A stretch of DNA of 64,000 nt, taken from assembly GCA_030706405.1 (NCBI GenBank), contig JAUZOO010000007.1, positions 124,001 to 188,000 on the forward strand. Direction: 5' to 3'. The notes under the pieces were generated by a model. The model was not told where the DNA came from. It searched no databases and worked only from the letters and a program-made list of their open reading frames with translations. The translations under genes and the position numbers were made by a program. The stretch comes from Bacteroidota bacterium (lineage in GTDB: Bacteria > Bacteroidota > Bacteroidia > Bacteroidales > JAAUTT01). Below, one piece after another: positions 6,704 to 53,466 of this stretch. Numbering within the stretch: position 1 is the first letter of the stretch; the number at the start of each line of letters is the position of its first letter.

Positions 6704-9286
6704 TTATCCGCATTTTGAAGACCCGCAATTAGTGCAGGTGAGACATCCTTCCTGGTAAACGAGTGCATCTGATCCGCACTCGCCACATTTACCTTTGGTA
6801 ACCTTAGTTCCGTCGGGGATGTATTTTTTAAGCGCACGTACTACTCCGTTTTTCCAGGTATTGATGGTGTCGCTGTCCACGGTTAATGACGATACCAGGT
6901 TTACAATGCCGTCGATAGGCATTCCGTAGCGCAATACGCCGGAGATGAGACGGGCATAGTTCCAGTACTCCTTGTTAAACATATGCGACAAACCTCCAAG
7001 CGTGTTTTTATATCCGTACTTGTCAATATATTGGAAGTCGTAACGTGTATTTCCGTCTTCATCTTTGTTTTTGATGATCTTTCCGGTGGTGATTGATTTC
7101 GGGATGGGGAACATTTCTTCGTCCTTCAGACCGGTAAAAATTTCGTATGGGCGGTCATCCAGAATACCTACAAATGCAATCCACTCTTCTTTTTCGTTTT
7201 TAAACCGGATAACATCGGCGTCCAATACTTTCGGACGTTTGATGGGTTCGGTCATGAGGGCCGGGGCAATTTTCTTTTCTTCTTTTTTATTCGAAATCAA
7301 GACGCCTGCACGTGAACCTTCGCGATAAACCGTTACTCCTTTGCATCCGCTCTTCCAAGCTGTTACATAAAGTTCGTCAACCAATTGTTCCGAAGCTGTT
7401 TCGGGCAGGTTAATGGTTACGCTGATAGAGTGGTCGACCCATTTTTGAACTTCGCCCTGCATGCGAACTTTGTTAATCCAGTCAACATCGGCCGAAGTGG
7501 CTTTATAATAAGGCGATTTTTTAACCAGTTCCTGAACCTTTTCGTCGTCATAAGATTTAACAGCTTCTGCATCGTAGCCGTTAACTTCGAGCCAGGTAAG
7601 GAATTTATGGTGGAAAACGTTATATTCTTCGAAGGAATCGCCCACTTCGTCAATAAACGAAACTTTTACGTTAGTGTCGTTCGGGTTGACTTTACGGCGA
7701 CGTTTGTAAACCGGAAGGAATACAGGTTCGATACCCGAGGTGGTTTGCGACATCAGGCTGGTGGTTCCGGTGGGAGCGATGGTAAGGAGCGCAATATTAC
7801 GGCGTCCGTATTTGGTCATGTCGCGGTAAAGCTGATCGTCTTCATTTTTTAACCTTTCAATAAAAGGATTACCGCGTTCGAGCATGCTGTCGTAAATCGG
7901 GAAGGCTCCACGTTCTTTAGCCAGGTTTACCGAAGCACGATATGCCTCGATTGCCAGCGTTTTATGTACTTCAATAGAGAAGTCGATGGCATCGTCACTT
8001 CCATAACGGAGTCCAAGACCTGCCAGCATGTCGCCTTCGGCAGTGATACCAATACCGGTACGGCGTCCTTCTTCTGCTTTCACGCGGATGTTTTCCCACA
8101 AGCGGCGTTCCACGCGTTTTACTTCAATATCTTCCGGATCGTCGGCTATCTTCTGAATGATCTGGTCGATTTTTTCGAGCTCAAGGTCGATAATGTCATC
8201 CATAATACGCTGAGCATATGCTGCGTGTTTTTTGAAAAGATCGAAATTGAATTTAGCCTGTGGTGTAAATGGATTTTCAACATAGCTGTATAGGTTGATA
8301 GCTATGAGACGGCAACTGTCATAAGGACAGAGAGGTATTTCGCCACAAGGATTAGTGGAAACGGTGCGATAACCGAATTTGGCATAGCTGTCTGGTACCG
8401 ATTCGTTAATAATGGTGTCCCAGAAAAGGATACCGGGTTCGGCCGATTTCCATGCGTTGTGGATTATCTTATTCCATAGGTCGCGTGCATTGATTTCTTT
8501 TTTATAAACTGGCTCGGGCGAATCAATCGGATACTGTTGTACATAAGGTGTATTGTTAACAACAGCATTCATAAATTCATTGTCAATTTTTACCGAAACA
8601 TTAGCCCCGGTAACTTTCCCAGCTTCCATTTTAGCATCAATAAAGTTTTCGGAATCGGGATGTTTAATCGATATCGAAAGCATTAATGCTCCACGACGGC
8701 CGTCCTGGGCAACTTCGCGGGTTGAGTTTGAAAAACGTTCCATAAACGGAACAACACCGGTTGAAGACAAAGCACTGTTAAGTACCGGGCTTCCATGAGG
8801 ACGAATGTGCGAGAGGTCATGTCCCACTCCTCCACGACGTTTCATCAGTTGTACCTGTTCCTGGTCAATTTTCATAATTCCGCCATAAGAATCGGCTGGA
8901 GGCTCGTTTCCAATAACAAAACAATTGGAAAGCGATGCTACCTGGTAGTTATTGCCAATGCCGGTCATTGGGCTACCTTGTGGAATAATGTATTTAAAGT
9001 CGCGGAATAGTTCGTATAACTCACTTTCAGAAAGCGGGTTCGTATACTTTTTTTCGATACGCGCGATTTCGCGGGTAATACGCCAGTGCATGTCGTCGGG
9101 CGACAATTCATAGATAGCACCAAAAGAATCTTTTAATGCATATTTGGTGGCCCAGACACGAGCTGCGAGTTCATCACCTTTGAAATATTCCAGAGCTTTG
9201 GGGAATACTTCATCATACGTGTACTTTTTTGCTTCCATTTGATTGGTTTCAGATTTCTGCTTGGCTACCATTTCTTCAATTTCCAT
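6704..9286 (-). CDS. nrdJ: Adenosylcobalamin-dependent ribonucleotide reductase (class II)
   Basis: Reduces ribonucleotides to deoxyribonucleotides with a radical made from adenosylcobalamin, so it needs neither oxygen nor an iron cofactor. The 860-residue protein has a short N-terminal region, the barrel with GSPMTGIGNNYQVASLSNCF (first redox cysteine), the active-site NPCGEIPLCPYDSCR with catalytic Cys and Glu, and the phosphate-binding APTGTTSLMSQTTSGIEP. The C-terminus has CGECGSDALVYQEGCLTC followed by TNCGSSKCG, a zinc-ribbon-like tail holding mobile redox cysteines. It stands alone, with over 500 bases of non-coding DNA upstream and a strong terminator downstream. No nrdAB or nrdDG is in the window. 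Confidence 0.97.
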   Translation of the reverse strand: MEIEEMVAKQKSETNQMEAKKYTYDEVFPKALEYFKGDELAARVWATKYALKDSFGAIYELSPDDMHWRITREIARIEKKYTNPLSESELYELFRDFKYIIPQGSPMTGIGNNYQVASLSNCFVIGNEPPADSYGGIMKIDQEQVQLMKRRGGVGHDLSHIRPHGSPVLNSALSSTGVVPFMERFSNSTREVAQDGRRGALMLSISIKHPDSENFIDAKMEAGKVTGANVSVKIDNEFMNAVVNNTPYVQQYPIDSPEPVYKKEINARDLWNKIIHNAWKSAEPGILFWDTIINESVPDSYAKFGYRTVSTNPCGEIPLCPYDSCRLIAINLYSYVENPFTPQAKFNFDLFKKHAAYAQRIMDDIIDLELEKIDQIIQKIADDPEDIEVKRVERRLWENIRVKAEEGRRTGIGITAEGDMLAGLGLRYGSDDAIDFSIEVHKTLAIEAYRASVNLAKERGAFPIYDSMLERGNPFIERLKNEDDQLYRDMTKYGRRNIALLTIAPTGTTSLMSQTTSGIEPVFLPVYKRRRKVNPNDTNVKVSFIDEVGDSFEEYNVFHHKFLTWLEVNGYDAEAVKSYDDEKVQELVKKSPYYKATSADVDWINKVRMQGEVQKWVDHSISVTINLPETASEQLVDELYVTAWKSGCKGVTVYREGSRAGVLISNKKEEKKIAPALMTEPIKRPKVLDADVIRFKNEKEEWIAFVGILDDRPYEIFTGLKDEEMFPIPKSITTGKIIKNKDEDGNTRYDFQYIDKYGYKNTLGGLSHMFNKEYWNYARLISGVLRYGMPIDGIVNLVSSLTVDSDTINTWKNGVVRALKKYIPDGTKVTKGKCGECGSDALVYQEGCLTCTNCGSSKCG

Positions 9287-9713
9287 TGTTCGTTGTTTTT
9301 GAAAGATTTATAACGTAGGGTTTCCTCGGGTTTAATGTGATGCAAGTTAACAAGACTACCAAAGCTGCACAAGCCTCCTAAATCGTAGTTATTAACAAAA
9401 CTCCTGAGTTATTAACTTTTGGTTTAATGTGTTGAAAATCAGTAAATGTAAAAAGGGGTGAATAGTTGCATTGCCCTTAAATTTATGACTTTCAAAGGGG
9501 TGGAGTTTTGTTTAAATTATTTACAAATAAACACTCCAAATAACGAAAAGTTTTGCTATATAAATTCTTTTTCCGGCCTTGTGTAATGGAATATTCAGAG
9601 GTTATGCTTCTTAACGGTTGTTACGCCTGTTTAGTTTTGCGTATTTTCAGTTAAACCTGAGTTAGTTTAGTCTGGTTGTTATATTGTATGGGAAAAGTGG
9701 ATTGTGCGAAAAA
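9287..9713. other. Long non-coding region upstream of nrdJ, with hairpin
   Basis: No credible gene. It presumably contains the nrdJ promoter and a leader. A stem is visible at 9501-9538: TGGAGT pairs with ACTCCA and GTTTA with TAAAC, separated by a 3-base bulge, around a 13-base loop. I looked for a cobalamin-riboswitch B12 box and for an NrdR-box pair and could not see either. No clear TTG-N19-TAnnTTTG promoter is visible on the minus strand. Confidence 0.5.
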
Positions 9714-9776
9714 CGGCAGGGGACTTCGTTTTTGACGAAATCCCCTGCCGTAAAATATCGGCTTTGAATTAGCCGA
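9709..9776 (-). terminator. Tandem hairpins ending the gltX-waaA transcript
   Basis: The first hairpin met on the minus strand is TCGGCT/AGCCGA (9758-9776). The second is a very strong stem with 10-bp arms CGGCAGGGGA (9714-9723) and TCCCCTGCCG (9741-9750), one C/A mismatch, then TTCGT/ACGAA and a 5-base loop. AAAAA at 9709-9713 reads as a U-run on the minus strand, so the second is the functional intrinsic terminator for waaA. Confidence 0.88.
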
Positions 9777-9842
9777 CTTGTAAAAGTTGAATTATTTCTG
9801 TCGGTTTTTCAGGTCTTATTTTTCAATAAGCGTTTTTACTAC

Positions 9843-11072
9843 TTACAAAATTGATGATAGGATTTTATTGGTTGCCCCGATGTTTTGCTTGACAAAATTC
9901 CCTGCGGTGTTTCCGGAAGTTTGAAGATATTGTGGATCGTTAAAAAGACGATCTAATTGATTTTTTAACCCAGTGAAACATTGAATTGGGAAAGCTCCCT
10001 TGGCATCAATCAGGTCAAGGGCTTCTTGAAATTTTTTGTGATTTGGCCCGAAAAGTACTGGGAGCCCAAATGTAGCCGCTTCCAGAATGTTGTGAATGCC
10101 TTTGCCAAATCCTCCGCCAATGTATGCCACCTGACCATAACGGTAAAGCGACGACAGCATGCCAATGTTATCGATGATTAACACGTCGAAGTCGCCAGAC
10201 GGGTTGAGTTTCCACGAAGAAAATCGAACAACTTTCTTTTGGATGGATTTTTCGAGACGGTCGATGTGCGACACTTGAATTTCGTGCGGCGCGATGATGT
10301 ATTTTAATGGCGAAGGCGTTTCGTTGATGTATTGCGAAAGTAAATCTTCGTCGGGTTCCCAGGTGCTTCCGGCGATGAGGCATTGTTTGTCGCCAACGAA
10401 CGTTTTTACCTCGTCAATCTCGCGGGCTTGGGAAGCAATGGCATAAACCCTGTCAAAACGGGTATCGCCGGTTACCGTAACATTGGTAAACCCAATATTT
10501 TTGAGTAGCAGTGCCGAAGCCTCAGTCTGAACAAAGAGGTGACTGAAAAACGATAGTATTTTTCGGTACCAGCCTCCGTACGGTTTGAAAAACAACTGAT
10601 TGCTTCGAAATATTGACGAACACAGATAGGCCGGAATGTCTCGTTTTTTAAGGAGTGACAGGTAGTTGTACCAAAATTCATATTTAATAAAAAATACTTT
10701 TTCAGGATTTACCAAGTCGATGAATCTACGCGCATTGCCAGGAGTGTCGGCCGGGAGGTAAAAAATGTAGTCGGCTCCGGCATAGTTTTTACGCACTTCA
10801 TATCCCGATGGCGAAAAAAACGTCAGGAATATCTTGTACTCCGGATGCTGTTCTTTAATTTTTTCGATAAGCGGGCGGCCTTGTTCGAATTCGCCCAGCG
10901 ATGCAGCATGCACCCATATACGACGTTCTCCTGATTGCAACTTGTTTTCGAGGTTTCGAAAAATATCTTTTCGTCCATCAACCCATTGGCGGGCTTTAAT
11001 ATTGCCTGTCAATGCAGCCACGCGAATGGCTATATTGTATAAGCGTATCAGGTTGTTGTATAAAGGTGTCAT
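9843..11072 (-). CDS. waaA: 3-deoxy-D-manno-octulosonic acid (Kdo) transferase
   Basis: Transfers Kdo from CMP-Kdo to lipid A at the inner membrane, building the LPS inner core. The 409-residue protein is the usual length for family GT30. It has a weakly hydrophobic N-terminus, the conserved RIWVHAASLGEFEQGRPLIE with the catalytic-base glutamate region, and the C-terminal nucleotide-sugar domain with YIGGGFGKGIHNILEAA. It begins at ATG 11072, 6 bases after the gltX stop, so the two are co-transcribed. It complements the lpxA, lpxC/fabZ and lpxD genes elsewhere in the window. Confidence 0.95.
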   Translation of the reverse strand: MTPLYNNLIRLYNIAIRVAALTGNIKARQWVDGRKDIFRNLENKLQSGERRIWVHAASLGEFEQGRPLIEKIKEQHPEYKIFLTFFSPSGYEVRKNYAGADYIFYLPADTPGNARRFIDLVNPEKVFFIKYEFWYNYLSLLKKRDIPAYLCSSIFRSNQLFFKPYGGWYRKILSFFSHLFVQTEASALLLKNIGFTNVTVTGDTRFDRVYAIASQAREIDEVKTFVGDKQCLIAGSTWEPDEDLLSQYINETPSPLKYIIAPHEIQVSHIDRLEKSIQKKVVRFSSWKLNPSGDFDVLIIDNIGMLSSLYRYGQVAYIGGGFGKGIHNILEAATFGLPVLFGPNHKKFQEALDLIDAKGAFPIQCFTGLKNQLDRLFNDPQYLQTSGNTAGNFVKQNIGATNKILSSIL

Positions 11073-32824: not shown

Positions 32825-32841
32825 TAGACAAAGTAGCCCAT

Positions 32842-32876
32842 AAAAAAAGGATGTCAATATTGACATCCTTTTTTTA
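32842..32876. terminator. Terminator of rimP-nusA-infB (two-way)
   Basis: A perfectly symmetric sequence: AAAAAAA then GGATGTCAA (32849-32857), TA, TTGACATCC (32860-32868), then TTTTTTT. It ends the infB transcript and can also stop minus-strand transcription of the polysaccharide genes converging from the right. Confidence 0.93.
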
Positions 32877-32902
32877 TGGTTATAATCCTGCGGTTTCGCT
32901 AT

Positions 32903-33547
32903 TTATTTCCTTAAGATTAAAATCGTATAAGCCGAAGAAGAAATAAGTGTAGTAATAAAGGATAATAATGACCAGTTAAATTCAATTGGTTCTTTTACAT
33001 AAACCGTATCTCCCGGATATAATAAAACTTCAGGCGCCTTCTCTGATATCTTTTTTGTTGTCTTAAAAAAAGCTCGCAAATTAACAGTCTCCATGCTGCC
33101 ATTAGCCCGTACAATATTCACCTGAGACACCCTCTTTAAATTTTTAATACCGCCAGCCATACTTAGGGTAGTGAGCAGATCAACCGGTTCGAACACCTGA
33201 TATTGCCCGGGCTTGTTAACAAATCCAAAAACATTAACCTGCTGTTTTTGAATCTTTTGAACATATACCGTCACAATTGGGTTTACTACAAATTTTTGAA
33301 GGGATTTGGTTAAGGTGTCAGTCAGGGTATAAGAACTCATGCCAGCTACTTTAACGCTTCCTAATGCCGGGTATTGAATTAATCCATCCGGCAGTACCAA
33401 CAACCCGGTTATTGTAAATTCGGGATGATCCATTACAGAGATATCCAACTGGTCGCCCCGTTGTAAAATATAATTTGTTTGGGATTTAAGCGTTCCGAAG
33501 CAGAATGAAAAGGTTACTAAAAGACAGAATAGAAGCTTTTTAATCAT
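32903..33547 (-). CDS. Polysaccharide export protein, Wza-like, short form
   Basis: A 214-residue exported protein: signal peptide (residues 1-22), a Poly_export domain (YILQRGDQLDISVMDHPEFT to about residue 100), one SLBB domain (VNVFGFVNKPGQYQVFEPV, about 105-170), and a hydrophobic C-terminal helix (about residues 190-210). No lipobox cysteine is evident. E. coli Wza is about 380 residues with more domains, so this is a reduced form, as commonly seen next to Wzc-type kinases in Bacteroidota. It lies 1 base after the SLBB-LCP gene, so the three minus-strand genes form one operon. Confidence 0.88.
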   Translation of the reverse strand: MIKKLLFCLLVTFSFCFGTLKSQTNYILQRGDQLDISVMDHPEFTITGLLVLPDGLIQYPALGSVKVAGMSSYTLTDTLTKSLQKFVVNPIVTVYVQKIQKQQVNVFGFVNKPGQYQVFEPVDLLTTLSMAGGIKNLKRVSQVNIVRANGSMETVNLRAFFKTTKKISEKAPEVLLYPGDTVYVKEPIEFNWSLLSFITTLISSSAYTILILRK

Positions 33548-33548
33548 A

Positions 33549-34937
33549 TTAATACAATTTTTGATTCCCAGGTTTTTGATATATTTTCACCATATTTCGC
33601 AACTCTTCATTTTTTAAATTGATAAAATTAGAAATATTAGGGTAAAAATACAGATTTCGACCTTCATCAGAATACGTTCCGGGAATGGTAGCAAACGAAA
33701 AATCATTAGACGAAAGCAAATCTTTATACATACGAAATAAAAGTTCTTTACCCAGATTGGTCTGAAACGAATTCATAGTACTCTGTACAACAGAAATTTT
33801 ATCCACTGCAGGCAGTTGTAAGAATGCCTCTCGCATGGCTTTTACAACAATATGCAATCGATTATTCCTTAATCCGTAAGCCAACTCCTGATCTCTCCCA
33901 CTAATAAGCACATCACCATTAATGGCCATCGAAGCAGCTTTACTTTGGTATTCCTTTAATGTTTTGGAGGCGAGATGAGGGTCTTGGGATATTGCTTTCA
34001 TTTCTGTCGCCGAAAAGCGTCTTCCATTAAACTTTGACAGCCTTGAAACAGCTTCTCGCTGCCTGGCAAGAGAAAGATTGGTTGCGGCCTGCGTCTGATT
34101 ATTATCCGCCATATTAAAATTAGAGTTTACACGTTTCATATCTACAAAACGCATGTAATCCCAAGTCTGGAAACCATCGAGATGCCGGGTTGAGGCAGTT
34201 AAATGATAGGCTTCGGCAAAATACTTATCAGCTGGAATATTGATACCTCCTATTTTGTTTATTGTTTCAATAAACGACATTCTGTCTTGAATAAGATAGT
34301 AATCAATTCTTCGATGAAGAACCCTCTCAAGCAGGTTCTTTGTGACATTCACACCCATTGTAAAAAAAAAATCCACGAGCCGGTTGTTGTCGTATAAAAA
34401 AACGCTTGAATGTGGAATATTTACAATGCTAACCCTTTTTTGGTCAGGATAGTAAGTTACCAGCATAAAGATGGAAGGGAATTCTACATAAAAAATATTA
34501 ATCGATTTTATCTCCGGTATATTTATTGGAACTGGCATTGCCGGACTTTTGGACTGAATCTGTGATAAATCGACAGAAGGTAGTGACGGTACGGAATCCC
34601 GAATCTTTTCGCGTAACGGAATAAGATAAACACTGTCATTTTTCAGGATAAGGTTAAGATCAATCGTCCTGATATCTGCTGTATTCCTAAGTCCTCCTGC
34701 TTCCAAAATGAGCTGAGAAAGGTCTGAACCTTCAGGCAACTTATAAATGCCAGGCTTTCGAACAGGCCCACATATACCTACTGTTAGGTGCGACTTACTG
34801 CTTTCTTCTTCATTATCTTTCGAAACCGGGAAAATCCAGATAAAAGAAATAATTCCGAATAAAAGTAAGCACGATATTAACCAGAATAAAAATTTCCGTA
34901 ATCTGTAAATCGACAGATGCTTTCTGCGATGAGACAT
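33549..34937 (-). CDS. Membrane-anchored SLBB-LCP fusion protein
   Basis: A 462-residue protein with a basic N-terminus, one membrane helix (about residues 14-33), a single SLBB-type domain (GICGPVRKPGIYKLPEGSDL and LILEAGGLRNTADI, about 52-98), a linker, and a LytR-CpsA-Psr-like domain (about 150-300). The LCP part shows YPDQKRVSIVNIPHSSVFLY, VLHRRIDYYLIQDRMSFIE, and GFQTWDYMRFVD ending in ARQREAVSRL. LCP proteins move lipid-linked glycopolymers onto an acceptor. The usual IPRD-type arginine/aspartate strand reads NIPHSS here, so catalysis is uncertain. Position between the Wza-like and Wzc-like genes places it in polysaccharide export. Confidence 0.78.
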   Translation of the reverse strand: MSHRRKHLSIYRLRKFLFWLISCLLLFGIISFIWIFPVSKDNEEESSKSHLTVGICGPVRKPGIYKLPEGSDLSQLILEAGGLRNTADIRTIDLNLILKNDSVYLIPLREKIRDSVPSLPSVDLSQIQSKSPAMPVPINIPEIKSINIFYVEFPSIFMLVTYYPDQKRVSIVNIPHSSVFLYDNNRLVDFFFTMGVNVTKNLLERVLHRRIDYYLIQDRMSFIETINKIGGINIPADKYFAEAYHLTASTRHLDGFQTWDYMRFVDMKRVNSNFNMADNNQTQAATNLSLARQREAVSRLSKFNGRRFSATEMKAISQDPHLASKTLKEYQSKAASMAINGDVLISGRDQELAYGLRNNRLHIVVKAMREAFLQLPAVDKISVVQSTMNSFQTNLGKELLFRMYKDLLSSNDFSFATIPGTYSDEGRNLYFYPNISNFINLKNEELRNMVKIYQKPGNQKLY

Positions 34938-34940
34938 GTT

Positions 34941-37202
34941 CTATTCTCTATTTCTAATAACGTTAAAAATATTAAATAAACTTTTAGATTGCGGACGGTC
35001 TTCATAACCATACCCGTAACCATAATACCCTTTGTAATGATAATTTGAATATCTAGTTAAAGGACTAACTTTTACGTCTGTAATAATGGTACCCAAAATA
35101 TTGCAGTTACCTGCCTCCATTTTCTCCAGCGTTTTTTCAAACGATCGTCTTGTGGTATGCATCATTCGGGCAATTAATACAACTCCGTCCATTTGCTCCA
35201 TCAGGTTTACAATGTCTGGAATATATAACAAAGCCGGTGTATCCACAATTATTAAGTCGTACTTAGGCTTTACTTCAGCAATGAAGGAATTAATTAAAGG
35301 ATGGTCAAAGGAAATGATTTTTCCACTAGTATTACTTCCGGCACCAACCATCCAAAGGTTTTCGAATACAGTTGGAGCGATAATTTCATCCAGAGTGTGT
35401 TCTCCGGTAAGGTAATTCTGGAATCCAATTATTCCATTATCACTCGCCACCTTGGTCATTCGGGGAAGAAATATATCAGCATCAACTAACAACACTTTAG
35501 CCCCTTTCTGTGCAAAATTAATAGCAAGGTGCATACTCAACGTTGTCTTCCCTTCTGTTCGTAAAGCACTACTAATTGAGAAGATTTTCTTACCATCTCG
35601 TAATTTCTGTTTCAGGTTTACCCATATTTCAGAAAATTCATGATTGGTAATTTGTTGTTCTTTAGTCATCGTGGCAGTGTCAAATGGCATACTAAAGAAC
35701 TCTGAATTTCTTTTATGGGAAACTGTTCCCAATATGGGAACCTTAAAAAATTTCTCAAAATCAGATAAAAGACGAAGCCTGTTATCCAGTAAATCATATA
35801 TATATACCATTAGAAATCCCAACGCACATCCCGCAACTAATCCGATCAACAAAAAGAAACTTAATTTTTTGTTGGAAGGATGAGTTGGTATTACCGGAGG
35901 ATCTATCATGGAAAATTTGCTAAGTTTACCTTGATTAGCGGATTGTGCTTCAATTAGTTTTCCGTTAAGCAAGTTGATGGTTGACAGTAACATATCCCGT
36001 TTTCTAATAAGCATCTGAAGCCCTTCATTTTTGTCATTAGGATCAAGTTGAAGATCCAGCTCCTTAACCACTTTTTGTAACGATGCGACTTTGGTTTCAA
36101 GAGATATTTCCTGAATCCTGTAATCTACAAGCTTGGCATTTAATTGAGCTTTTATAGGATTGGAAGACAAACTTTTTACCTCAATATTTTGTTCTATCCC
36201 ATTCTTTATCAATGCCGACACCTGTTGTATATTTTCCTTAATCCCTTTTACAATAGGATGATCTTCCGTATATTTTGTCAAAGCCCTGGCTAAGTCAACC
36301 TGAAGGTTCATCAGCTGAACCTTTAAAGGCTCAGACAATGCTGTTTCGTTAACAACAGTCCCGTCAATATCTTTAAGCTCATGCTCCGTCCTCAGTCTAG
36401 ATGCTTTTATGGAAGAGTATTCAACCTGGGCATCCATCAGACTCTTTTGAAAATTTTGCTGCGTGCTGGTAACCTGTCCCAGATCATTAATCTTATTAAC
36501 ACTGAATTGAGATCCTAAAGATCTTATCTGAGTGTCAATATCATCAAGTTTGGTATTACTTTCTGCTATTTGTTTGGTGAAATAATCAATCAGGTTTCCT
36601 GAACTTCTGATATGGTTCGTCTGATCCATATCATTCAATGCTTCAACATAAGCCTTACTAAGCACAGGGATATCACTCGCTCTTTTTAAGCTAAGTGTTA
36701 TCCGGAATATGTTATCTACTTTTTTATCCTGAACTTCGGCACTAATCATTCCTTTTAACATATCCAAAGAATAGGGAAGTGATGAATTTTCTTGTATTAT
36801 TTTCATCATTTGCCCCGAAACCATTGCATTAGTCCAGTAGTTTTTATCAAAATCCGATTTAATTACCGGAACATTCGATTCTACAACATATTCCTTTACT
36901 GATTGATCGTAATAAACAGAAAAACTAGCAATATAATTTTTAGGAGAACGGATAAAAATTACCCCTGAAGCCAAAATGCATAATAAAAGGATGACAGTAA
37001 AAATCCATTTATGCAACATTACAATTTCAAAATAACGAAAGAAGTCAAAGGTGTCGTTTTGGTTATTTTCATCCAAAGTATCATCTGCGACCTTAACATA
37101 AAGATTGCGCTCTTCTTTTGCCGGAGATTCGTAATAATTGGACCCGTTTTTGCCATTATCGGAAGAGGAGGCTTGTTTATTTAAATTATTTTTAAAATAC
37201 AT
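34941..37202 (-). CDS. Wzc-like polysaccharide co-polymerase / tyrosine autokinase
   Basis: A 753-residue inner-membrane protein controlling polysaccharide chain length and export. It has a cytoplasmic N-terminal tail, TM1 (about 75-95), a large periplasmic coiled-coil region (about 100-475), TM2 (about 478-500), and a C-terminal BY-kinase. Walker A appears as SSALRTEGKTTLSMH (about 540-552), Walker A' as VLLVDADIFLPR (about 570-580) and Walker B as YDLIIVDTPALL (about 655-665). The tail carries a tyrosine cluster, YSNYHYKGYYGYGYGYE, the expected autophosphorylation region. First gene of the export operon; the upstream region is 930 bases long and may regulate it. Confidence 0.93.
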   Translation of the reverse strand: MYFKNNLNKQASSSDNGKNGSNYYESPAKEERNLYVKVADDTLDENNQNDTFDFFRYFEIVMLHKWIFTVILLLCILASGVIFIRSPKNYIASFSVYYDQSVKEYVVESNVPVIKSDFDKNYWTNAMVSGQMMKIIQENSSLPYSLDMLKGMISAEVQDKKVDNIFRITLSLKRASDIPVLSKAYVEALNDMDQTNHIRSSGNLIDYFTKQIAESNTKLDDIDTQIRSLGSQFSVNKINDLGQVTSTQQNFQKSLMDAQVEYSSIKASRLRTEHELKDIDGTVVNETALSEPLKVQLMNLQVDLARALTKYTEDHPIVKGIKENIQQVSALIKNGIEQNIEVKSLSSNPIKAQLNAKLVDYRIQEISLETKVASLQKVVKELDLQLDPNDKNEGLQMLIRKRDMLLSTINLLNGKLIEAQSANQGKLSKFSMIDPPVIPTHPSNKKLSFFLLIGLVAGCALGFLMVYIYDLLDNRLRLLSDFEKFFKVPILGTVSHKRNSEFFSMPFDTATMTKEQQITNHEFSEIWVNLKQKLRDGKKIFSISSALRTEGKTTLSMHLAINFAQKGAKVLLVDADIFLPRMTKVASDNGIIGFQNYLTGEHTLDEIIAPTVFENLWMVGAGSNTSGKIISFDHPLINSFIAEVKPKYDLIIVDTPALLYIPDIVNLMEQMDGVVLIARMMHTTRRSFEKTLEKMEAGNCNILGTIITDVKVSPLTRYSNYHYKGYYGYGYGYEDRPQSKSLFNIFNVIRNRE

Positions 37203-37635
37203 GTTGTTATTTTTATAGACAACGATTCTTTTAAAACTGACGATTAAAGGTAAAGGTCAGTTTTGGAAACCTTAGCCACATTCTATTAATAATAGTTATT
37301 TATTTAAAAATCAATCTAGTAGTCCCTACCAACAAATTCATATGCTAATCGGACAAATACCAACAGGAACTGCAAATTTCATTTCCCTCCTACGTGTAGA
37401 CTAGAAATAATGGGGAGCGACTTTTTACGTTTACGCAAACTTATAAATTTGGTTTATAAATTATTACTTTTTTTAATCAAAAGTACTTCTGGTTATTTGA
37501 AACCGTCTCCTCCCATACAAAAAAATTGATTAATATATTCTTTTATAAGGAAATAATTCATCAATTTACTATTAGCCTAAAAGAACATCAGAAAACGATT
37601 CAAAAGTAATGCTATTTTTCTCATTAATCCGGAGA

Positions 37636-37651
37636 GGTGATACATATCACC
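37636..37651. promoter_or_regulatory. 16-bp palindrome, Crp/Fnr-type operator candidate
   Basis: GGTGATA-CA-TATCACC, perfect on both arms. The core TGAT-N4-ATCA is the shape bound by Crp/Fnr-family regulators. Its centre is about 50 bases upstream of the start predicted from the minus-strand -7 element at 37601-37608, which lacks a TTG element. That arrangement suits an activator. The regulator is unknown. Confidence 0.5.
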
Positions 37652-38059
37652 AATTTCAAATTCATTTAATGTTGCACATTTGGGTTATACATGCGTTCTT
37701 TGTTAAGATAATTAATGAGAATGATCGTCCATATTTGAACATATAATTACGAATAAATCACATTGACATTTAGCCTTTTTTAAAAGATAATAAATCCAGT
37801 TACCTTTAAAAAAGTATTATTCTATAGGAGAGATGTTAATTGTTACAATTATATCAATAAATAACGGTTTGAGGGATTGCGTTAATTCTGTCATTATTAC
37901 TTAAGAGCCTCTCATTGGGCTGTACAATAACTAATACAATAAAAGCTGCTCCATTTAGGAATACTAAAAATGAAGCAATCTCAATTTTAAACAAAATTAC
38001 GAAAGCATGATAATATATTTTTTTAAATTTGATCAATTATATGAAACTTAATTATTTCC

Positions 38060-38089
38060 AATGTCGTAAAAAATATACTTTTCGACATT
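38060..38089. promoter_or_regulatory. Inverted repeat over promoter-like site of OMP gene
   Basis: AATGTCG (38060-38066) and CGACATT (38083-38089) are perfect 7-bp arms; AAAA/TTTT next to them can extend the pairing. The spacer contains TATACTTTTC, one base off a TAnnTTTG -7 element, about 80 bases before the ATG at 38167. It is a possible operator. Confidence 0.45.
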
Positions 38090-38166
38090 ATCCTTTGTGA
38101 CAGCAATATTTTTCGAGTAGTGCTAATTTTATAATGTTTGGGGCTATTTACATTTTGATTAAGATT

Positions 38167-38724
38167 ATGATACGGTCGTTTATTTGTATTTTCTTTTTGT
38201 CATTTCCCATTATATCTACCTATGGGCAGCGAAATCTAAGATTAGACGCTTCGCCTCCGGGTTATTTTAACCTGACAGAAGCGTACGTAGCAAAAGGTCT
38301 AAGCTATACAACTACTCCCTTTTCAGCTAGTACCCTAGGCTTTACGACTATAAACGGCTACAAGGTCGATGAAAATTTCCGTACAGGAGTCGGTGTTGGA
38401 TATTATGCCTATAATGGAGGGGGGCTGATTCCTCTGTTTCTCGATTTACGATATTCTTTTAGAGCAACCCCTTTAAATTATAAGCAAATCCAGTCAGGCA
38501 AGTTCAAACCTTCATTTTTTTTATACGCTGATGGGGGGTATCTAATTAATCCACAAAATATTATGCACGGAACAAGAATGATGCTTAACCCCGGTGTTGG
38601 ATTTATGAAACCCATCACGGAATTAATATCTGCCAGTTTCTCAGTTGGAATTATGACACAAATGGGAGATGGCTTACCCAAATCATCTTTCTTGAATACA
38701 AAAATAGGACTTCATTTCCAGTAA
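38167..38724 (+). CDS. Small outer-membrane beta-barrel-like protein, unknown role
   Basis: About 185 residues from ATG 38167 (an upstream ATG at 38134 would add 11 residues). Signal peptide IRSFICIFFLSFPIISTYGQ, then alternating polar/aromatic strands (GVGVGYYAYNGGGLIPLF, FLDLRYSFRA, SFFLYADGGYLINP, ASFSVGIMTQMG) and a C-terminal aromatic strand ending FLNTKIGLHFQ. This pattern fits an 8-stranded outer-membrane barrel. I do not recognise a family. It lies between the polysaccharide export operon and the WcaJ-like gene, so an envelope role is an inference from place only. Confidence 0.65.
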   Translation: MIRSFICIFFLSFPIISTYGQRNLRLDASPPGYFNLTEAYVAKGLSYTTTPFSASTLGFTTINGYKVDENFRTGVGVGYYAYNGGGLIPLFLDLRYSFRATPLNYKQIQSGKFKPSFFLYADGGYLINPQNIMHGTRMMLNPGVGFMKPITELISASFSVGIMTQMGDGLPKSSFLNTKIGLHFQ

Positions 38725-38836: not shown

Positions 38837-40225
38837 TTATCCTGCGTTCTTCTCTCCTTTTAACATATTAAGCACGGTATAAATAATTATCTGGAGGTCT
38901 AATAAAAAAGACCAATTTTCCATATACCACACATCATGCAGCACCCGGAGGCGCATTGCTCTGGATGTTTTAGTTTCACCTCTAAACCCCTTTATTTGCG
39001 CCCAACCGGTTATTCCGGGTTTAATAGAATGGCGCAACAAGTAACGATCAATGAGCCGACTGTATTCTTCGGTATGTTTAAGCATGTGTGGACGAGGCCC
39101 CACCACCGACATTTCTCCTTTCAGTACATTAATAAACTGAGGAACCTCATCGAGGTTGGATTTTCGTAAAAAACGTCCCAACCTTGTAATACGGGAATCA
39201 TTTTTTTGGGCTTGAAGCGAATTTGCTTGGGCATTAACCTTCATTGTTCGCAGTTTTATGCACCGAAATATGTCATTATTTTCACCATTACGTTCCTGGA
39301 TAAAAAACACTGGTCCTTTCGAATCAAGTTTGATTAAGATTGCCAATATAGGTAATAACCAAGATAGCAACAACACAATCACAAGTAAGGCAAAAACAAC
39401 ATCAAATGCCCGTTTTATCACACGGAAAGTGTAACGGCTTAACGGCTCTTTACGGATAGTAATAATAGGGAAATTATCAAAGAAATCAACACTAATATTT
39501 CTAAGCACATAACGCCCAAGATCGGGAACTATCTTTACTCGGATGAGATGATTCTCTGCAAAAGCGATAACTTCACGCACATAATCGTTTAAGAGATCGG
39601 GCATGGTAATAAAGACCTCATCAACCTGTTCACGTTCCATATAAGTAAAAACCTCATCAAAATTACCTAGTATTGAATTTTCATTTCTTACCGAAGCTTT
39701 GGTATCATCAAAAAAACCAAGAAATCGGTAACCCAGAGCCGGCTGATGTTTAAACGTATTGCTCAGTTGTCGACCGGTACGTCCGGCCCCAATGATTATA
39801 TAATTAACGTGCAACTTAACTTTTTTATGTTCAATATATTGAGCAAAAACAAAACGCCATAAAGTTAGCAATACCAATGCAAACACGGAAAAGAAGCCAA
39901 TCACCAAACGTGAAGTTATTTCAATCTTGCCAATAAATACGACTGTAGTAATTACAAGAAACAAAAGAAAAATACCTCGAATGATATCAAATAAGGATTC
40001 ATACCATTTTTGGATCTTTTGTAATGAATATAACCTCCAGTTAATCGAAATGACAGCCCATGAAACAAGGATAATAGCAAGAAGAAATAAATAAGCCACT
40101 TCTTGCCCGGAGTAACGGTCCACATCATACCGTAAAAAAAACGCAACCAGAAATGCCACGGTAAGGCATACCAGATCGCCAATTAAAAAAGCTCGCTTAA
40201 ACGTATCCGAAAATCCTCTTTCCAT
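38837..40225 (-). CDS. Exopolysaccharide initiating sugar-phosphate transferase (WcaJ-like)
   Basis: A 462-residue polyprenyl-phosphate hexose-1-phosphate transferase that begins repeat-unit synthesis by moving sugar-1-phosphate onto undecaprenyl phosphate. There are four N-terminal membrane helices (about 12-110), a CoA-binding-like Rossmann domain (VNYIIIGAGRTGRQLSN, about 140-250), another helix (about 275-300), and the catalytic domain with GPVFFIQERNGEN, KLRTMKVNA, LDEVPQFINVLKGEMSVVG followed by PRPH, and KPGITGWAQIKGFRGET. The sugar is probably glucose or galactose but cannot be fixed by sequence. It is near the export genes, yet no other glycosyltransferases are here. Confidence 0.92.
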   Translation of the reverse strand: MERGFSDTFKRAFLIGDLVCLTVAFLVAFFLRYDVDRYSGQEVAYLFLLAIILVSWAVISINWRLYSLQKIQKWYESLFDIIRGIFLLFLVITTVVFIGKIEITSRLVIGFFSVFALVLLTLWRFVFAQYIEHKKVKLHVNYIIIGAGRTGRQLSNTFKHQPALGYRFLGFFDDTKASVRNENSILGNFDEVFTYMEREQVDEVFITMPDLLNDYVREVIAFAENHLIRVKIVPDLGRYVLRNISVDFFDNFPIITIRKEPLSRYTFRVIKRAFDVVFALLVIVLLLSWLLPILAILIKLDSKGPVFFIQERNGENNDIFRCIKLRTMKVNAQANSLQAQKNDSRITRLGRFLRKSNLDEVPQFINVLKGEMSVVGPRPHMLKHTEEYSRLIDRYLLRHSIKPGITGWAQIKGFRGETKTSRAMRLRVLHDVWYMENWSFLLDLQIIIYTVLNMLKGEKNAG

Positions 40226-47901: not shown

Positions 47902-50900
47902 ATGATTGACAAAATCATCAGTTTTTCGATAAAGAATAAAATTCTTATCGGGGTACTGACGTTGGCCTTAGTGGGTTGGGGAACTCATTCCCTCACCCGG
48001 TTGCCAATCGACGCAGTCCCCGACATCACCAACAACCAGGTGCAGATTATTTCCTGGGCACCGACACTGGCCCCTCAGGAAGTAGAACAATCCGTAACTG
48101 CGCCCATTGAGGTGGCCGTTGCCAACATCCCCGATATGGTTGAACTCCGTTCTATTTCCCGCCTGGGACTTTCGGTGGTCACCATCGTTTTTGAGGACAA
48201 AGTTGATATTTACAAAGCCCGCCAGCTGGTAGGCGAACGCCTCAAGGAAGCCGAGGAGCAAATCCCCGAAGGGATAGCCAGACCCGAGCTTGCTCCGGTT
48301 TCTACCGGATTGGGCGAAATCTACCAATATATATTAAAGGTAAAACCCGGTTCGGAAAAGAAGTATTCCCCCATGGAACTGCGGACTATCCAAGACTGGA
48401 TTGTACGCCGCGAGATGCTCGGCACACCGGGCGTGGCCGACGTAAACAGTTACGGTGGGTTCCTGAAACAGTACGAAGTGGCCGTAAACCCCGACCGGCT
48501 CCGCAGCCTTAACCTCACGCTAACCGATATTTTCGACGCGCTTGCCAAAAACAACGAAAACACCGGCGGGGCATATATCGATAAGAAACCAAACGCGTAC
48601 TTTATCCGCGGGGTAGGTTTGGCAACCTCGCTTGAGGATGTCGGAAAAATCGTGGTTAAGTCCGGCACACAAGGCATGCCTGTCCTGGTGCGCGATGTGG
48701 CTACCGTTCAGTACGGGCACTCGCCACGTTTCGGGGCTTTTGTAGCCGATACGTCCGAAGTGGTTGGCGGTGTGGTGATGATGCTTAAAGATGCCAACGC
48801 ACACCAGGTTATTAATAATGTAAAGAAGCGACTGGAAACCATTCAGCAAAGCCTGCCCGAAGGCGTGACCATTGAACCGTACCTCGACCGCACCGATTTG
48901 GTGGGACGGGCTATCGGAACGGTTTCGAAAAACCTCATCGAAGGAGGGCTGATTGTCGTTTTGGTGCTGGTCTTACTTCTTGGAAACCTTCGTGCCGGAC
49001 TGATTGTAGCTTCGGTAATCCCGCTGGCCATGCTCTTTGCCATTTCGCTGATGAACCTTTTCGGGGTCTCCGGAAACCTGATGAGCCTCGGGGCAATCGA
49101 CTTCGGCCTGATTGTGGATGGCGCCGTCATCATCGTTGAAAGTGTCGTGCATCGCATCACGCAGAGCCGGCACCATCACCAGGGCATTGCCCGGCTCAAC
49201 CAAAACCAGATGGACGCCGAGGTCAGTTCCTCAGCCCGTCGCATGATGAGCTCGGCAACGTTCGGACAAATCATCATCCTCATTGTTTACCTTCCCATCC
49301 TCGCACTGGTTGGCATCGAAGGCAAAATGTTCCGCCCAATGGCGCAGGTTGTAAGTTTCGCCATTTTCGGGGCTATCCTACTGTCGTTAACGTACGTGCC
49401 AATGGTTTCGGCTTTGTTCCTCAGCAAAGAAACCGCGCACAAACCCAACATTTCCGACCGTTTAATGGAGAAAATCCAACATCTTTTCGACCCGATAATC
49501 CACTGGGCTTTAAAACAAAAACGCGTGGTTATCATTGTTTCCGCACTGCTGTTTGTGGGTAGCGTGGTTGTTTTCAGCCGTCTTGGCGGAGAATTCCTTC
49601 CGCAGCTCGAAGAAGGAGACCTTGCCGCAGGTGTTATGACCCTACAGGGCGGTTCGCTCTCGAACACCGTGGAGACTGTTAAAAAAGCCAACTACATCAT
49701 GCGGAGCAATTTTCCGGAAATAAAAAAGGCCGTTTGTAAGATTGGAGCCGGCGAAATACCGACCGACCCCACCCCCATGGAAACGGGCGATTATATCATT
49801 ACGCTGAAAGATAAAAAAGAATGGACTTCGGCAGAAACCCGCGAAGAGCTGGTGGAAAAACTGGAAGAAAAACTTTCCGTACTGCCCGGCGTGGTGTTCG
49901 AATTTCAGCAACCCATACAAATGCGTTTTAACGAACTGATGACCGGATCGAAACAAGATGTTGCCGTAAAGATTTTTGGTGATAACCTCGACCTGCTTGC
50001 ATCTACCGCCAGCAAAGCGGCAAAAATCATCAGCAGGACGAAAGGTGTAGAAGACATCAACATCGAAAAAGTAACCGGCCTGCCCCAAATCCAGATTGAA
50101 TATAACCGCGACCGGATTGCCCAGTACGGCCTGAATATCGCCGACATCAACCGCATCCTGAAAACCGCGTTTGCCGGAAGTGCGGCAGGTGTTATTTATG
50201 ACGAAGAAAAACGCTTCGACCTCGTAGTCCGTCTCGACAAAGATTACCGCCAGGATTTGGATAATGTGAGAAGCCTTTATATCCCGCTGCCATCGGGAGG
50301 CCAGATAACCCTCGACCAGGTTGCGGATGTGAATATCAAGGACGGCCCGGCACAGATTTCGCGCGAAAACACTAAACGGCGCATCACCATTGGCTTTAAC
50401 GTTCGCGGCCGCGATGTGGAGAGCGTTGTGGATGAAGTACGGCACGCCATAGACTCGCGGTTGAAACTTCCGGCAGGCTATTACGCCACCTATGGCGGTC
50501 AGTTCGAAAACCTGGTTGCCGCCAAAAAACGCCTGTCCATCGCACTTCCCATCGCAATGGCCTTAATTTTTGTACTGCTGTATTTCACGTTTCACTCGTT
50601 AAAAGAATCGCTGTTGATATTCTCCGCAGTCCCGCTCTCGGCCATCGGCGGGGTGCTTGCCCTTTGGATGCGTGGGATGAACTTCAGCACCCCGGCAGGC
50701 ATCGGGTTCATCGCCCTTTTCGGGGTTGCCGTGCTTAACGGCATCGTGCTGATTGCCGAGTTCAACCGGCTCGAACGCGAGGAAGGCATCGCCGACATCC
50801 ACCGCCGGGTATTGAAAGGCCTTCGCTCAAGGCTCCGTCCGGTTATCATGACCGCTTCGGTGGCATCGCTCGGCTTCTTGCCCATGGCATTATCGACCTC

Positions 50901-52278
50901 GGCAGGTGCCGAAGTCCAAAAACCGTTGGCAACGGTCGTCATCGGCGGACTTATCACGTCAACCCTGTTAACACTGGTGGTATTGCCGGTGCTGTATATT
51001 CTTTTTTCAGGAAAGAAGAAGAAATCAGGGAATGGCTTTGAGTTCAACCCAACCGTAATTGCATTGTTGCTTTTAGCGGGAGGGCTTGGTTTTTCGACAA
51101 AAAGTTCAGCCCAGACAGCCATGCCGTTAACACTTGCCAAAGCCATTCAACTGGCTACGGACAGCAACCTTTCTGTCCGTTCGGCAGGTTTAAAAGTGGA
51201 GATGCAAAAAACGCTGAAAGGTTCGGCGTGGGATATCGAAAAAACAAACATCGGTTTCGAATACGGACAGAGCAACTCGCTTCACAAGGACAACGGTTTT
51301 ACCATTTCGCAGACGTTCGCTTTCCCCACGGTTTATGCCAACCAAAGCAAATTGGCATCGGCCACAACCAAAAGCAGCGACATTGAACTTAACGTAACGA
51401 AAAACGAAATCATAAGCCGGGTAAAATCCATCTGGTGGCAACTTGCCTATCAGCACGCCAAACTAAGGCTGATGCAATATCAGGATAGTCTTTATGCAGG
51501 TTTCCTGAAGGCTGCCGAGCAAAAAGCGCTGGCCGGAGAAACCAATAACCTGGAAAAATTAAATGCCGAAACGCAACGGCTCGAAGTAGAAAACGCCATG
51601 CGACAGGTTTTTGCTGACATTGAAATTGGTCAACAAAAACTTCAAACCCTGTTAAATCTTCGCCAGCCCATAAAGATGGCCGATACAACACTGACAAGAC
51701 TCGGTTTTTCGGGAAGCCCAAACAGTCAAAACCCGCAACTGGCCTGGCACGAGCAACAATCGAAAATGGCGCGGCTAGAAACCAAAGTAGAACAGGCAAA
51801 ACTGGCCCCCGATTTCACTATCGGCTACTTCAATAAATCCATCATCGGTTCACAGGACGACAACGGCACAACCCGTTACTTCTCGGCTTCCGACAGGTTC
51901 TCGGGAATCCAGGCCGGCATAGCCATTCCGCTATGGTTTAAACCTCAGGCATCCAAGATTAAAGCCGCAAGGATTAACGAACGGATTGCGCAGACCAATG
52001 CAGAAAACTTCCGGCAAACCCTGAACAGCGAATATACCGCCCTGTTGCAGGAACTTCAGAAAAACAGCTTAAGTGTGGATTATTACGAAAAGACCGCACT
52101 GGTACATGCCGACAAAATCATCAACCAGTCCACGCTTAGCTATAAAGCCGGTGCGCTCGACTATTCCGACCATATCCAGAACCTGGCCCGCGCACTGCAA
52201 ATCAAAAGCAATTATCTCGAATCGCTTAATCAATATAACCAAACCGTCATCGTCCTCGAACAGTTGACGGGCAAATAA
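47902..52278 (+). CDS. CzcA/CusA-family RND metal pump fused to TolC-like outer-membrane factor
   Basis: A 1458-residue fusion. Residues 1 to about 1040 are a heavy-metal RND pump with 12 membrane helices and two large periplasmic loops. TM4 reads DFGLIVDGAVIIVES, the DFG-x3-DGA-x3-E pattern associated with CzcA-type (divalent Zn/Co/Cd) pumps rather than the Cu/Ag type. Residues about 1048-1073 add a further hydrophobic segment ending SSAQT, which looks like a signal-peptidase site. Residues about 1075-1458 are an outer-membrane efflux (OEP/TolC) domain with long coiled coils and YKAGALDYSDHIQNLARAL. Pump and exit duct are thus made as one chain. The adaptor gene follows 15 bases later. Confidence 0.93.
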   Translation: MIDKIISFSIKNKILIGVLTLALVGWGTHSLTRLPIDAVPDITNNQVQIISWAPTLAPQEVEQSVTAPIEVAVANIPDMVELRSISRLGLSVVTIVFEDKVDIYKARQLVGERLKEAEEQIPEGIARPELAPVSTGLGEIYQYILKVKPGSEKKYSPMELRTIQDWIVRREMLGTPGVADVNSYGGFLKQYEVAVNPDRLRSLNLTLTDIFDALAKNNENTGGAYIDKKPNAYFIRGVGLATSLEDVGKIVVKSGTQGMPVLVRDVATVQYGHSPRFGAFVADTSEVVGGVVMMLKDANAHQVINNVKKRLETIQQSLPEGVTIEPYLDRTDLVGRAIGTVSKNLIEGGLIVVLVLVLLLGNLRAGLIVASVIPLAMLFAISLMNLFGVSGNLMSLGAIDFGLIVDGAVIIVESVVHRITQSRHHHQGIARLNQNQMDAEVSSSARRMMSSATFGQIIILIVYLPILALVGIEGKMFRPMAQVVSFAIFGAILLSLTYVPMVSALFLSKETAHKPNISDRLMEKIQHLFDPIIHWALKQKRVVIIVSALLFVGSVVVFSRLGGEFLPQLEEGDLAAGVMTLQGGSLSNTVETVKKANYIMRSNFPEIKKAVCKIGAGEIPTDPTPMETGDYIITLKDKKEWTSAETREELVEKLEEKLSVLPGVVFEFQQPIQMRFNELMTGSKQDVAVKIFGDNLDLLASTASKAAKIISRTKGVEDINIEKVTGLPQIQIEYNRDRIAQYGLNIADINRILKTAFAGSAAGVIYDEEKRFDLVVRLDKDYRQDLDNVRSLYIPLPSGGQITLDQVADVNIKDGPAQISRENTKRRITIGFNVRGRDVESVVDEVRHAIDSRLKLPAGYYATYGGQFENLVAAKKRLSIALPIAMALIFVLLYFTFHSLKESLLIFSAVPLSAIGGVLALWMRGMNFSTPAGIGFIALFGVAVLNGIVLIAEFNRLEREEGIADIHRRVLKGLRSRLRPVIMTASVASLGFLPMALSTSAGAEVQKPLATVVIGGLITSTLLTLVVLPVLYILFSGKKKKSGNGFEFNPTVIALLLLAGGLGFSTKSSAQTAMPLTLAKAIQLATDSNLSVRSAGLKVEMQKTLKGSAWDIEKTNIGFEYGQSNSLHKDNGFTISQTFAFPTVYANQSKLASATTKSSDIELNVTKNEIISRVKSIWWQLAYQHAKLRLMQYQDSLYAGFLKAAEQKALAGETNNLEKLNAETQRLEVENAMRQVFADIEIGQQKLQTLLNLRQPIKMADTTLTRLGFSGSPNSQNPQLAWHEQQSKMARLETKVEQAKLAPDFTIGYFNKSIIGSQDDNGTTRYFSASDRFSGIQAGIAIPLWFKPQASKIKAARINERIAQTNAENFRQTLNSEYTALLQELQKNSLSVDYYEKTALVHADKIINQSTLSYKAGALDYSDHIQNLARALQIKSNYLESLNQYNQTVIVLEQLTGK

Positions 52279-52293
52279 TAAAATTCCGAACTC

Positions 52294-53466
52294 ATGAGAA
52301 GTATCATATCTATTTTAATTATAACGACGTTTCTTTTTTCCTGTAAAACCGGCAAGAAGGAAGAAACCCACGAAGGACACGAAGTTTTGTCGGAAGACAT
52401 TGTAGAACTGAACGCCGACCAGATTAAGATGGCCGGCATCGAATACGGACAGGTGGAACAAAAAACACTGAGCAATACGTTAAATGTAAACGGCATTGTA
52501 ACGGTTTCGCCGCAAAACCTGGCTTCGGTTTGTGCCCCGCTGGGAGGAATTGTAAAAAGCACGTCCTTAACTACCGGCGCTTCGGTAAAAAAAGGCCAGG
52601 CATTGGCAATTCTCGAAAACCCGGAGTTTATAGAGCTTCAGCGCAATTACCTCGAAAGCCGCAGCAAGCTCGAATACGCCGAATCGGAATACAAACGCCA
52701 CAGCGACCTGTACAAAAGCGACGTTTACTCGAAACAAAACGTACAACAGGTAACGGCCGATTATCAAAGCCTGAAAGTACAGGTTAGCGCGCTTGCCCAG
52801 AAGTTGGCGCTCATCGGCATCGATGCCGCGCATTTAAAAGAAAGCACCATTTCGCGGAGTGTCGCCATCGCCTCACCGATTAACGGGTTTATCAAAACCA
52901 TGAATGTAAACATTGGAAAATCGGTTTCCCCGTCGGATGTGATGTTCGAAATCGTCAACACCGCCAGCCTCACGTTGGAACTGACCCTTTTTGAAAAGGA
53001 CATCAACAAGATTGCCGTAGGACAAAAGCTACGGTTCTCGGTTTCAAACGGAAGTCCGCAGGAACAAAATGCCGTTGTAACCCAAACAGGGAAAGCCATC
53101 GCCAGCGACAAAACGGTAAAAGTTTATGCTTCGGCAGCCAACGCAGGCAACGAAAAAGTCCTTCCGGGAATGTACGTCAATGCCCGCATCGAAACCAGCA
53201 ACAACCCGGTAACTGCACTTCCCACGGAAGCCATCGTCCGTTTTGACGAGAAAGATTTCATCTTCGTTTTTGATAAAACTAAAAAAGAAGGTGCAAAAAT
53301 TATTGGCGAATTCCGTATGGTTCAGGTAAAACGAGGCGTGACCAACGGCAATTATACCGAGGTGTTATTTCCTGAAAATTTTAATTTAAAAACTGATAAA
53401 ATTGTAACAAAAGGATCATATAACCTATTGTCGGCCAAAAAGAATGCAGGAGATATGGCTTGTTGA
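52294..53466 (+). CDS. RND efflux periplasmic adaptor lipoprotein (CusB/CzcB-like)
   Basis: A 390-residue membrane-fusion protein joining the pump to its outer-membrane duct. Signal with lipobox FLFSC (Cys17) indicates lipid anchoring. Then a barrel-sandwich half (VCAPLGGIVKSTSLTTGASV), a coiled-coil hairpin (about 105-175), the second lipoyl half (VAIASPINGFIKTMNVNIGK), a beta-barrel and a membrane-proximal domain (LPTEAIVRFDEKDFIFVF). The histidine-rich stretch near the start (THEGHEVL) may bind metal. It is the last gene of the efflux transcript. Confidence 0.92.
   Translation: MRSIISILIITTFLFSCKTGKKEETHEGHEVLSEDIVELNADQIKMAGIEYGQVEQKTLSNTLNVNGIVTVSPQNLASVCAPLGGIVKSTSLTTGASVKKGQALAILENPEFIELQRNYLESRSKLEYAESEYKRHSDLYKSDVYSKQNVQQVTADYQSLKVQVSALAQKLALIGIDAAHLKESTISRSVAIASPINGFIKTMNVNIGKSVSPSDVMFEIVNTASLTLELTLFEKDINKIAVGQKLRFSVSNGSPQEQNAVVTQTGKAIASDKTVKVYASAANAGNEKVLPGMYVNARIETSNNPVTALPTEAIVRFDEKDFIFVFDKTKKEGAKIIGEFRMVQVKRGVTNGNYTEVLFPENFNLKTDKIVTKGSYNLLSAKKNAGDMAC

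Follow-up and report, generated by a model that had tools for sequence, protein, structure and literature searches.

SLBB domains contribute to the rings formed by Wza-type polysaccharide exporters, and one is also carried by ComEA, a membrane-anchored, extracytoplasmic protein. In streptococcal capsule operons, the LCP (LytR-CpsA-Psr) protein CpsA/Wzg is encoded beside CpsC/CpsD. The LCP domain is described as Mg-dependent, with R118 of TagT assisting deprotonation (PMC7831098). According to the same source, in Cps2A, which also carries an accessory domain, D234 and D246 bind Mg, R267, R362 and R374 hold the pyrophosphate, and D371 and Q378 are stabilising; the corresponding residues given for TagT are R118 and R219. 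By 2008, just two strains of Bacteroidetes had been reported to have LCP proteins (PMC2632651), and PMC12220298 describes the mechanism by which Gram-negative Wzy-dependent capsules are retained as not exactly known.

We analyzed a gene in a 64,000-nt stretch of a Bacteroidota genome (hereafter the window) in which an SLBB domain is fused to a degenerate LCP domain. The protein has the same fold and topology as the LCP transferases (Cps2A/Wzg, TagT/TagU/TagV), with an N-terminal transmembrane helix, an accessory domain and an LCP domain, but it has neither the Mg aspartates nor the IPRD arginine, its accessory domain is an SLBB, and an insertion of approximately 30-80 aa lies near the old active site. 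The SLBB of ComEA (8dfk, 8dss) was the best structural and sequence match for residues 48-111; unlike ComEA, the fusion joins this domain to an LCP domain, and Pfam listed no DNA-binding HhH domain for it up to E 1. With the Wza/Wzc group 1 capsule exporter and class 3 OPX proteins (the latter described in PMC9603273), the operon shares genes for a PCP/BY-kinase of Wzc type and for an OPX protein with Poly_export and SLBB domains. Its order is wzc-fusion-wza, whereas wza-wzc was the order seen in the window's genus, and the fusion is an extra, third inner-membrane component. The canonical LCPs of the phylum resembled the fusion in matching PF03816 (15 of 15 aligned), but none of the 15 had an SLBB at E ≤ 0.01 and their catalytic residues were complete. 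The individual parts (SLBB domain, LCP domain, Wzc, Wza) are well known; the fusion of an SLBB to a degenerate LCP and the wzc-fusion-wza order were not found in the literature searched. That search, which mostly covered papers outside subscription, returned neither work joining SLBB with LCP domains nor work on LCP (LytR) pseudoenzymes.

Architecture of the fusion and its operon

Both domains of the window copy scored above the curated Pfam cut-offs: the SLBB matched PF10531 (E 3.9e-11, 43 bits, cut-off 27) and the LCP domain matched PF03816 (LytR_cpsA_psr; E 6.9e-8, 33.2 bits, cut-off 24.6). PF02563 (Poly_export) was absent from the Pfam matches of the fusion up to E 1. The operon (Table 1) is transcribed in the order wzc (37202 to 34941), fusion, wza (33547 to 32903), with 3 bases between wzc and the fusion and 1 base between the fusion and wza, and contains both the PCP/BY-kinase gene and the OPX gene that mark a Wzc/Wza export locus. 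The window Wzc matched TIGR01007 (polysaccharide tyrosine autokinase) at 117.8 bits (cut-off 108.05). ORF coordinates, domain matches and the hydrophobic segment thus bear out the first-pass annotation, which had described one helix, an SLBB and an LCP-like domain in a single protein placed between Wza-like and Wzc-like genes with gaps of 1 and 3 bases.

Table 1 Features of the fusion gene and its surroundings in the window (residue numbers are those of the window fusion)
Feature	Position	Strand	Remarks
SLBB-LCP fusion gene	33549..34937	-	462 aa; TM helix 12-41, SLBB 53-97, linker, LCP-like domain ~143-462
SLBB domain, residues 53-97	34647..34781	-	Pfam PF10531; closest structures ComEA 8dfk, 8dss
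LCP core, residues 157-264	34146..34469	-	PF03816; IPH (174-176) replaces IPR; Arg263 retained
Insertion region, residues 271-351	33885..34127	-	Contains ARQREA 291-296; window copy ~50 aa longer than relatives
LCP C-terminal half, residues 352-462	33549..33884	-	R357/R360 in RNNRL; RxxRQ in the other 4 full-length members
wzc-like PCP-2a/BY-kinase gene, operon gene 1	34941..37202	-	753 aa; NCBIfam eps_fam TIGR01007, Pfam
wza-like OPX gene, last operon gene	32903..33547	-	214 aa; Poly_export and one SLBB; hydrophobic C-terminal stretch
Terminator-like inverted repeat	32838..32879	.	19 pairs, then T-rich tail; between convergent wza and infB
WcaJ-type undecaprenyl-phosphate glucose phosphotransferase	38837..40225	-	TIGR03023 457.2 bits, cut-off 410.75; upstream of operon

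The fusion has a single hydrophobic segment (residues 12-41), preceded by a net charge of +4, and a similar N-terminal hydrophobic segment after a positive stretch was found in the five relatives. Because of this N-terminal helix and its positive flank, the protein is probably oriented with its N terminus inside, facing the periplasm from the inner membrane, rather than located at the cell surface as had been proposed.

The WcaJ-type transferase is likely the initiating enzyme. The approximately 930 bases upstream of wzc (37203-38133) are AT-rich and contain no ORF of at least 100 aa (GC 0.31 over 37000-38499). Terminator-like sites were as frequent in the window as expected from shuffled sequences (3 found, 3.0 expected); the one that follows wza has the longest stem. 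Elsewhere in the window, one 1458-aa ORF (47902-52278) combines an AcrB-type RND pump with a C-terminal outer-membrane efflux (OEP) domain and is followed by an HlyD-type partner (52294-53466).

Distribution and conservation of the fusion family

A Pfam search for LCP domains in 393 genomes of the order gave a match in five, namely two canonical LCPs (L003 and L004) and three fusions; besides that of the window, the fusions were L005 and L006, in which the SLBB was recognized by alignment. Scanning genome contigs with a three-row alignment yielded the fusion loci L061-L065, among which L062 and L064 duplicate the contigs of L005 and L006, respectively, and L065 is cut by a contig end. There are at least six distinct fusion loci by this pattern-based scan, all in Bacteroidales, the five beyond the window coming from metagenome-assembled genomes (MAGs). 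The window fusion is 36-38% identical to its four full-length relatives. PF03816 and PF10531 each matched five of the six members at E ≤ 0.01; the member without a PF03816 match is presumably the truncated L065. The SLBB of L062 scored 18.1 bits, below the Pfam cut-off of 27, and that of L064 was not listed up to E 1.

The architecture was rare. In searches that scored at most four candidates per genome, 26 of the 393 order genomes matched the first fusion profile, and three of these matches were full-length (G000, G055 and G373); 20 others covered the SLBB region alone, two were canonical LCPs (G153 and G382) and one was a fragment with stops (G085). At the level of the phylum, 77 of 390 genomes matched; in 76 the match was confined to the SLBB with its flanks (positions 25-154), and the window's own genome was the only one with a full-length fusion among the matches scored. 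A widespread architecture was therefore not seen among the scored matches of either sample, in which many genomes are MAGs and absence is not proof. The fusion was found in none of 40 relatives of the window genome (including 0/4 congeners), in one of nine genomes of G373's family and, at full length, in one of three of G055's family, and the site beside infB carried other genes in the three congeners read. This patchy distribution suggests horizontal spread. A separate group of LCPs in the phylum (L007-L030; 24 matches, 373-495 aa with the starts as assigned here) occurred in 22 of 395 genomes besides the window's; in the 13 that were aligned, no catalytic residue was missing and the C terminus was extended by a long stretch.

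Purifying selection on the fusion was strong where it could be measured (dN/dS of 0.074 for L061/L063 and 0.072 for L061/L065; omega ~0.07 in the L061/L063/L065 group), which rules out a pseudogene for these three loci. For the window copy, an open frame maintained when identity to the full-length relatives is down to 36-38% argues against decay.

The operon context was also conserved. wzc lay directly upstream of the fusion in 6/6 loci, and wza lay downstream in all five loci in which its position was present (directly so in the window, L061, L063 and L064; also in L062, where it is interrupted by a stop; the L065 contig ends before this position). The L061 Wzc scored 84.8 bits against the kinase model (cut-off 108.05), and the L062 Wzc was 33% identical to that of the window. 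In L062, wza is split by an in-frame TAA into two ORFs of 113 and 75 aa (9248-9889), which is either a real inactivation or a MAG error. As a contrast, we took 11 other wzc loci of the window's genus, that is, matches to the window Wzc including a second copy in the window genome (L078 and L079 were left out). A Pfam-confirmed wza was directly upstream of wzc, with no intervening gene, in eight; no wza was found in the short flank of the other three (L069, L076 and L077). At E ≤ 1e-40, the subtype to which the operon's wza belongs was detected in two of 344 order genomes (G000 and G055; at most eight candidates scored per genome), both of which carry the fusion; G373, whose wza was part of the query, was not listed in this search, presumably because it was not drawn. 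Given this contrast in gene order, and a wza subtype detected among the candidates scored only in genomes with the fusion, the operon looks like a distinct type whose parts travel together.

Long genes for secreted proteins lie upstream on the same strand in L061 (2455-5061), L063 (2263-5058) and L064 (2073-4856), and are possibly glycan-linked cargo. A T9SS type A sorting domain was matched in those of L061 and L063 and not in that of L064, and no long secreted gene of T9SS type lies directly upstream of the operon in L062 or the window; for these reasons T9SS cargo was rejected as a defining part of the operon.

Fold and active-site residues of the LCP domain

Searching the PDB with the family profile recovered ComEA (E 1.6e-10), TagV (1.4e-7), Cps2A (3.9e-7) and TagU (4.6e-7); the C-terminal half of the LCP domain was partly aligned, in second stretches that are weak alone. 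Together with the two Pfam matches above their cut-offs, this result rules out a chance domain match. The profile-profile comparison of the fusion with canonical LCPs was weaker than the HMMER matches (probability 51%, E 1.6e-4) and counts against a close relation between the two. Structure prediction, which the first-pass annotation had named as a check of the LCP fold, gave a mixed outcome: within residues 152-395 of the window model, the highest Z for an LCP structure in VIA-align was 11.6, from an alignment of just 89 residues, and the AlphaFold2 model itself was poor (pLDDT 47.7, pTM 0.34). A second model, with L061 first, was worse (pLDDT 43.8); its alignment left out the distant LCP of the one contig that the viral contigs yielded (L099/L100). 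DNA-pattern scans of the viral contigs for LCP motifs gave no match. Residues 48-111 of the window model matched ComEA best (Z 12.1 and 11.8), whereas SLBBs from Wza-type proteins scored Z ≤ 7.7. We take the LCP fold of the fusion as established by homology and its fine geometry as putative.

Active-site positions were mapped by sequence alignment and not from a reliable model. For comparison we used 15 aligned LCPs of 26 fetched (L003, L004 and 13 of L007-L030). All 15 were invariant at D65, D82, R103, R193, D201, R204 and Q208 (L003 numbering, the pairing of which with Cps2A numbers is our assignment), and [IV]PR together with both Mg-type aspartates was present in 16/16 when L099 was added. 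In the fusion family, IPH replaces IPRD in all six members, placing His176 at the position of Cps2A R267 and TagT R118. Both Mg-binding aspartates (Cps2A D234 and D246) are missing in the five full-length members, in which the loop is deleted and the stretch between the first two LCP strands is approximately 10 residues shorter than in canonical LCPs; a glutamate near the lost site (E152) was found in the window copy alone. The sign of a non-catalytic domain that the first-pass annotation had read in NIPHSS was thus reinforced, whereas ARQREA, which it had taken for conserved LCP residues, lies in sequence absent from the other four full-length relatives.

Other parts of the site were retained. 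Arg263 (Cps2A R362) was the same in all five full-length members, as were D266, R269 and R357. The PDB profile alignment places R357 at Cps2A R374, and a second alignment instead places D266xxR269 at D371/R374. The equivalent of Cps2A Q378 is Gln in four of the five and Leu in the window, where the RxxRQ equivalent spans residues 357-361. With both the loop for Mg and the arginine of IPRD lost, Mg-dependent LCP chemistry is unlikely in the family; with one or two of the arginines that grip the lipid pyrophosphate in Cps2A kept, binding of lipid phosphate could persist. Judged from the alignment, the fusion belongs to the LCP fold family but lacks residues expected of a catalytic LCP transferase. 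An intact lipid tunnel is only putative, the models being poor.

Possible roles in polysaccharide export

From the observed architecture, operon, conservation and residue losses, we infer a ligand, partners and a function for the fusion. Our main reading, to which we give a probability of approximately 0.5, is that it acts as a dedicated receptor-adaptor of the inner membrane, facing the periplasm and with little or no catalytic activity, in a distinct Wzc/Wza-type polysaccharide export system of Bacteroidales. The LCP domain would hold either the chain on undecaprenyl-PP or the carrier once freed, without carrying out the ordinary transfer chemistry; the SLBB would self-assemble or dock with the Wza/Wzc ring; and the fusion would thereby link export to the completion of the polymer. 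Although plausible, docking on Wza is a guess, because the SLBB is closer to that of ComEA than to those of Wza-type proteins. The interpretation offered by the first-pass annotation is partly supported overall.

The distribution of conservation along the protein bears on a reading that we consider unlikely, in which the SLBB and the LCP fold serve only to bridge Wzc and Wza in the periplasm, as a ring or a spacer, and the old active site is free of ligand. The loss of the catalytic loop, the fixed gene order with wzc and wza, and the presence of SLBB domains in the rings of Wza-type exporters are all consistent with such a scaffold. However, the first LCP half, which holds most of the old active site, was better conserved between the window and L061, L064 and L062 (58-70 of 128 residues identical) than the SLBB (26-27 of 61) or the second LCP half (37-43 of 108-110), the margin over the SLBB being small in L062, and the retained phosphate-site arginines also speak for a ligand site.

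The histidine of IPH, invariant at the place of the catalytic arginine in 6/6 members, could mean altered chemistry and not loss. An active, rewired LCP-type enzyme would then free the chain from undecaprenyl-PP, or pass it to an acceptor in the envelope, through this histidine and the arginines in place of the usual Mg site; Arg263 and Arg357, retained in the five full-length members, and the strong purifying selection agree with it, and the mechanism of capsule retention in Gram-negative bacteria, in the account cited above (PMC12220298), leaves room for it. The loss of both Mg aspartates with their loop and of the IPRD arginine, set against the described Mg dependence of the LCP domain and the part of TagT R118 in deprotonation (PMC7831098), makes this rather unlikely. 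More specifically, and in our judgment quite improbably, a rewired LCP held to Wzc/Wza by its SLBB might carry out the terminal step, cutting the finished polysaccharide from undecaprenyl-PP or attaching it to such an acceptor, using His where LCP enzymes have the catalytic Arg and working without a canonical metal site. If true, a Gram-negative outer-membrane polysaccharide exporter would contain its own finishing enzyme of LCP type.

It is very unlikely that the fusion would sense lipid-linked glycan and set the autophosphorylation of Wzc by analogy with CpsA/Wzg beside CpsC/CpsD, a role that the inner-membrane topology and the shared operon of an LCP with a polysaccharide co-polymerase/BY-kinase, as in streptococcal capsule operons, would fit, but that leaves the addition of the SLBB unexplained and requires a purely hypothetical contact with Wzc.

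By placing the fold of the Gram-positive attaching enzymes in one operon with Wzc and Wza, the fusion offers a concrete way into how polymer synthesis ends and how the product passes to export. The fusion family would, in addition, represent a branch of pseudo-enzymes among the LCP proteins.
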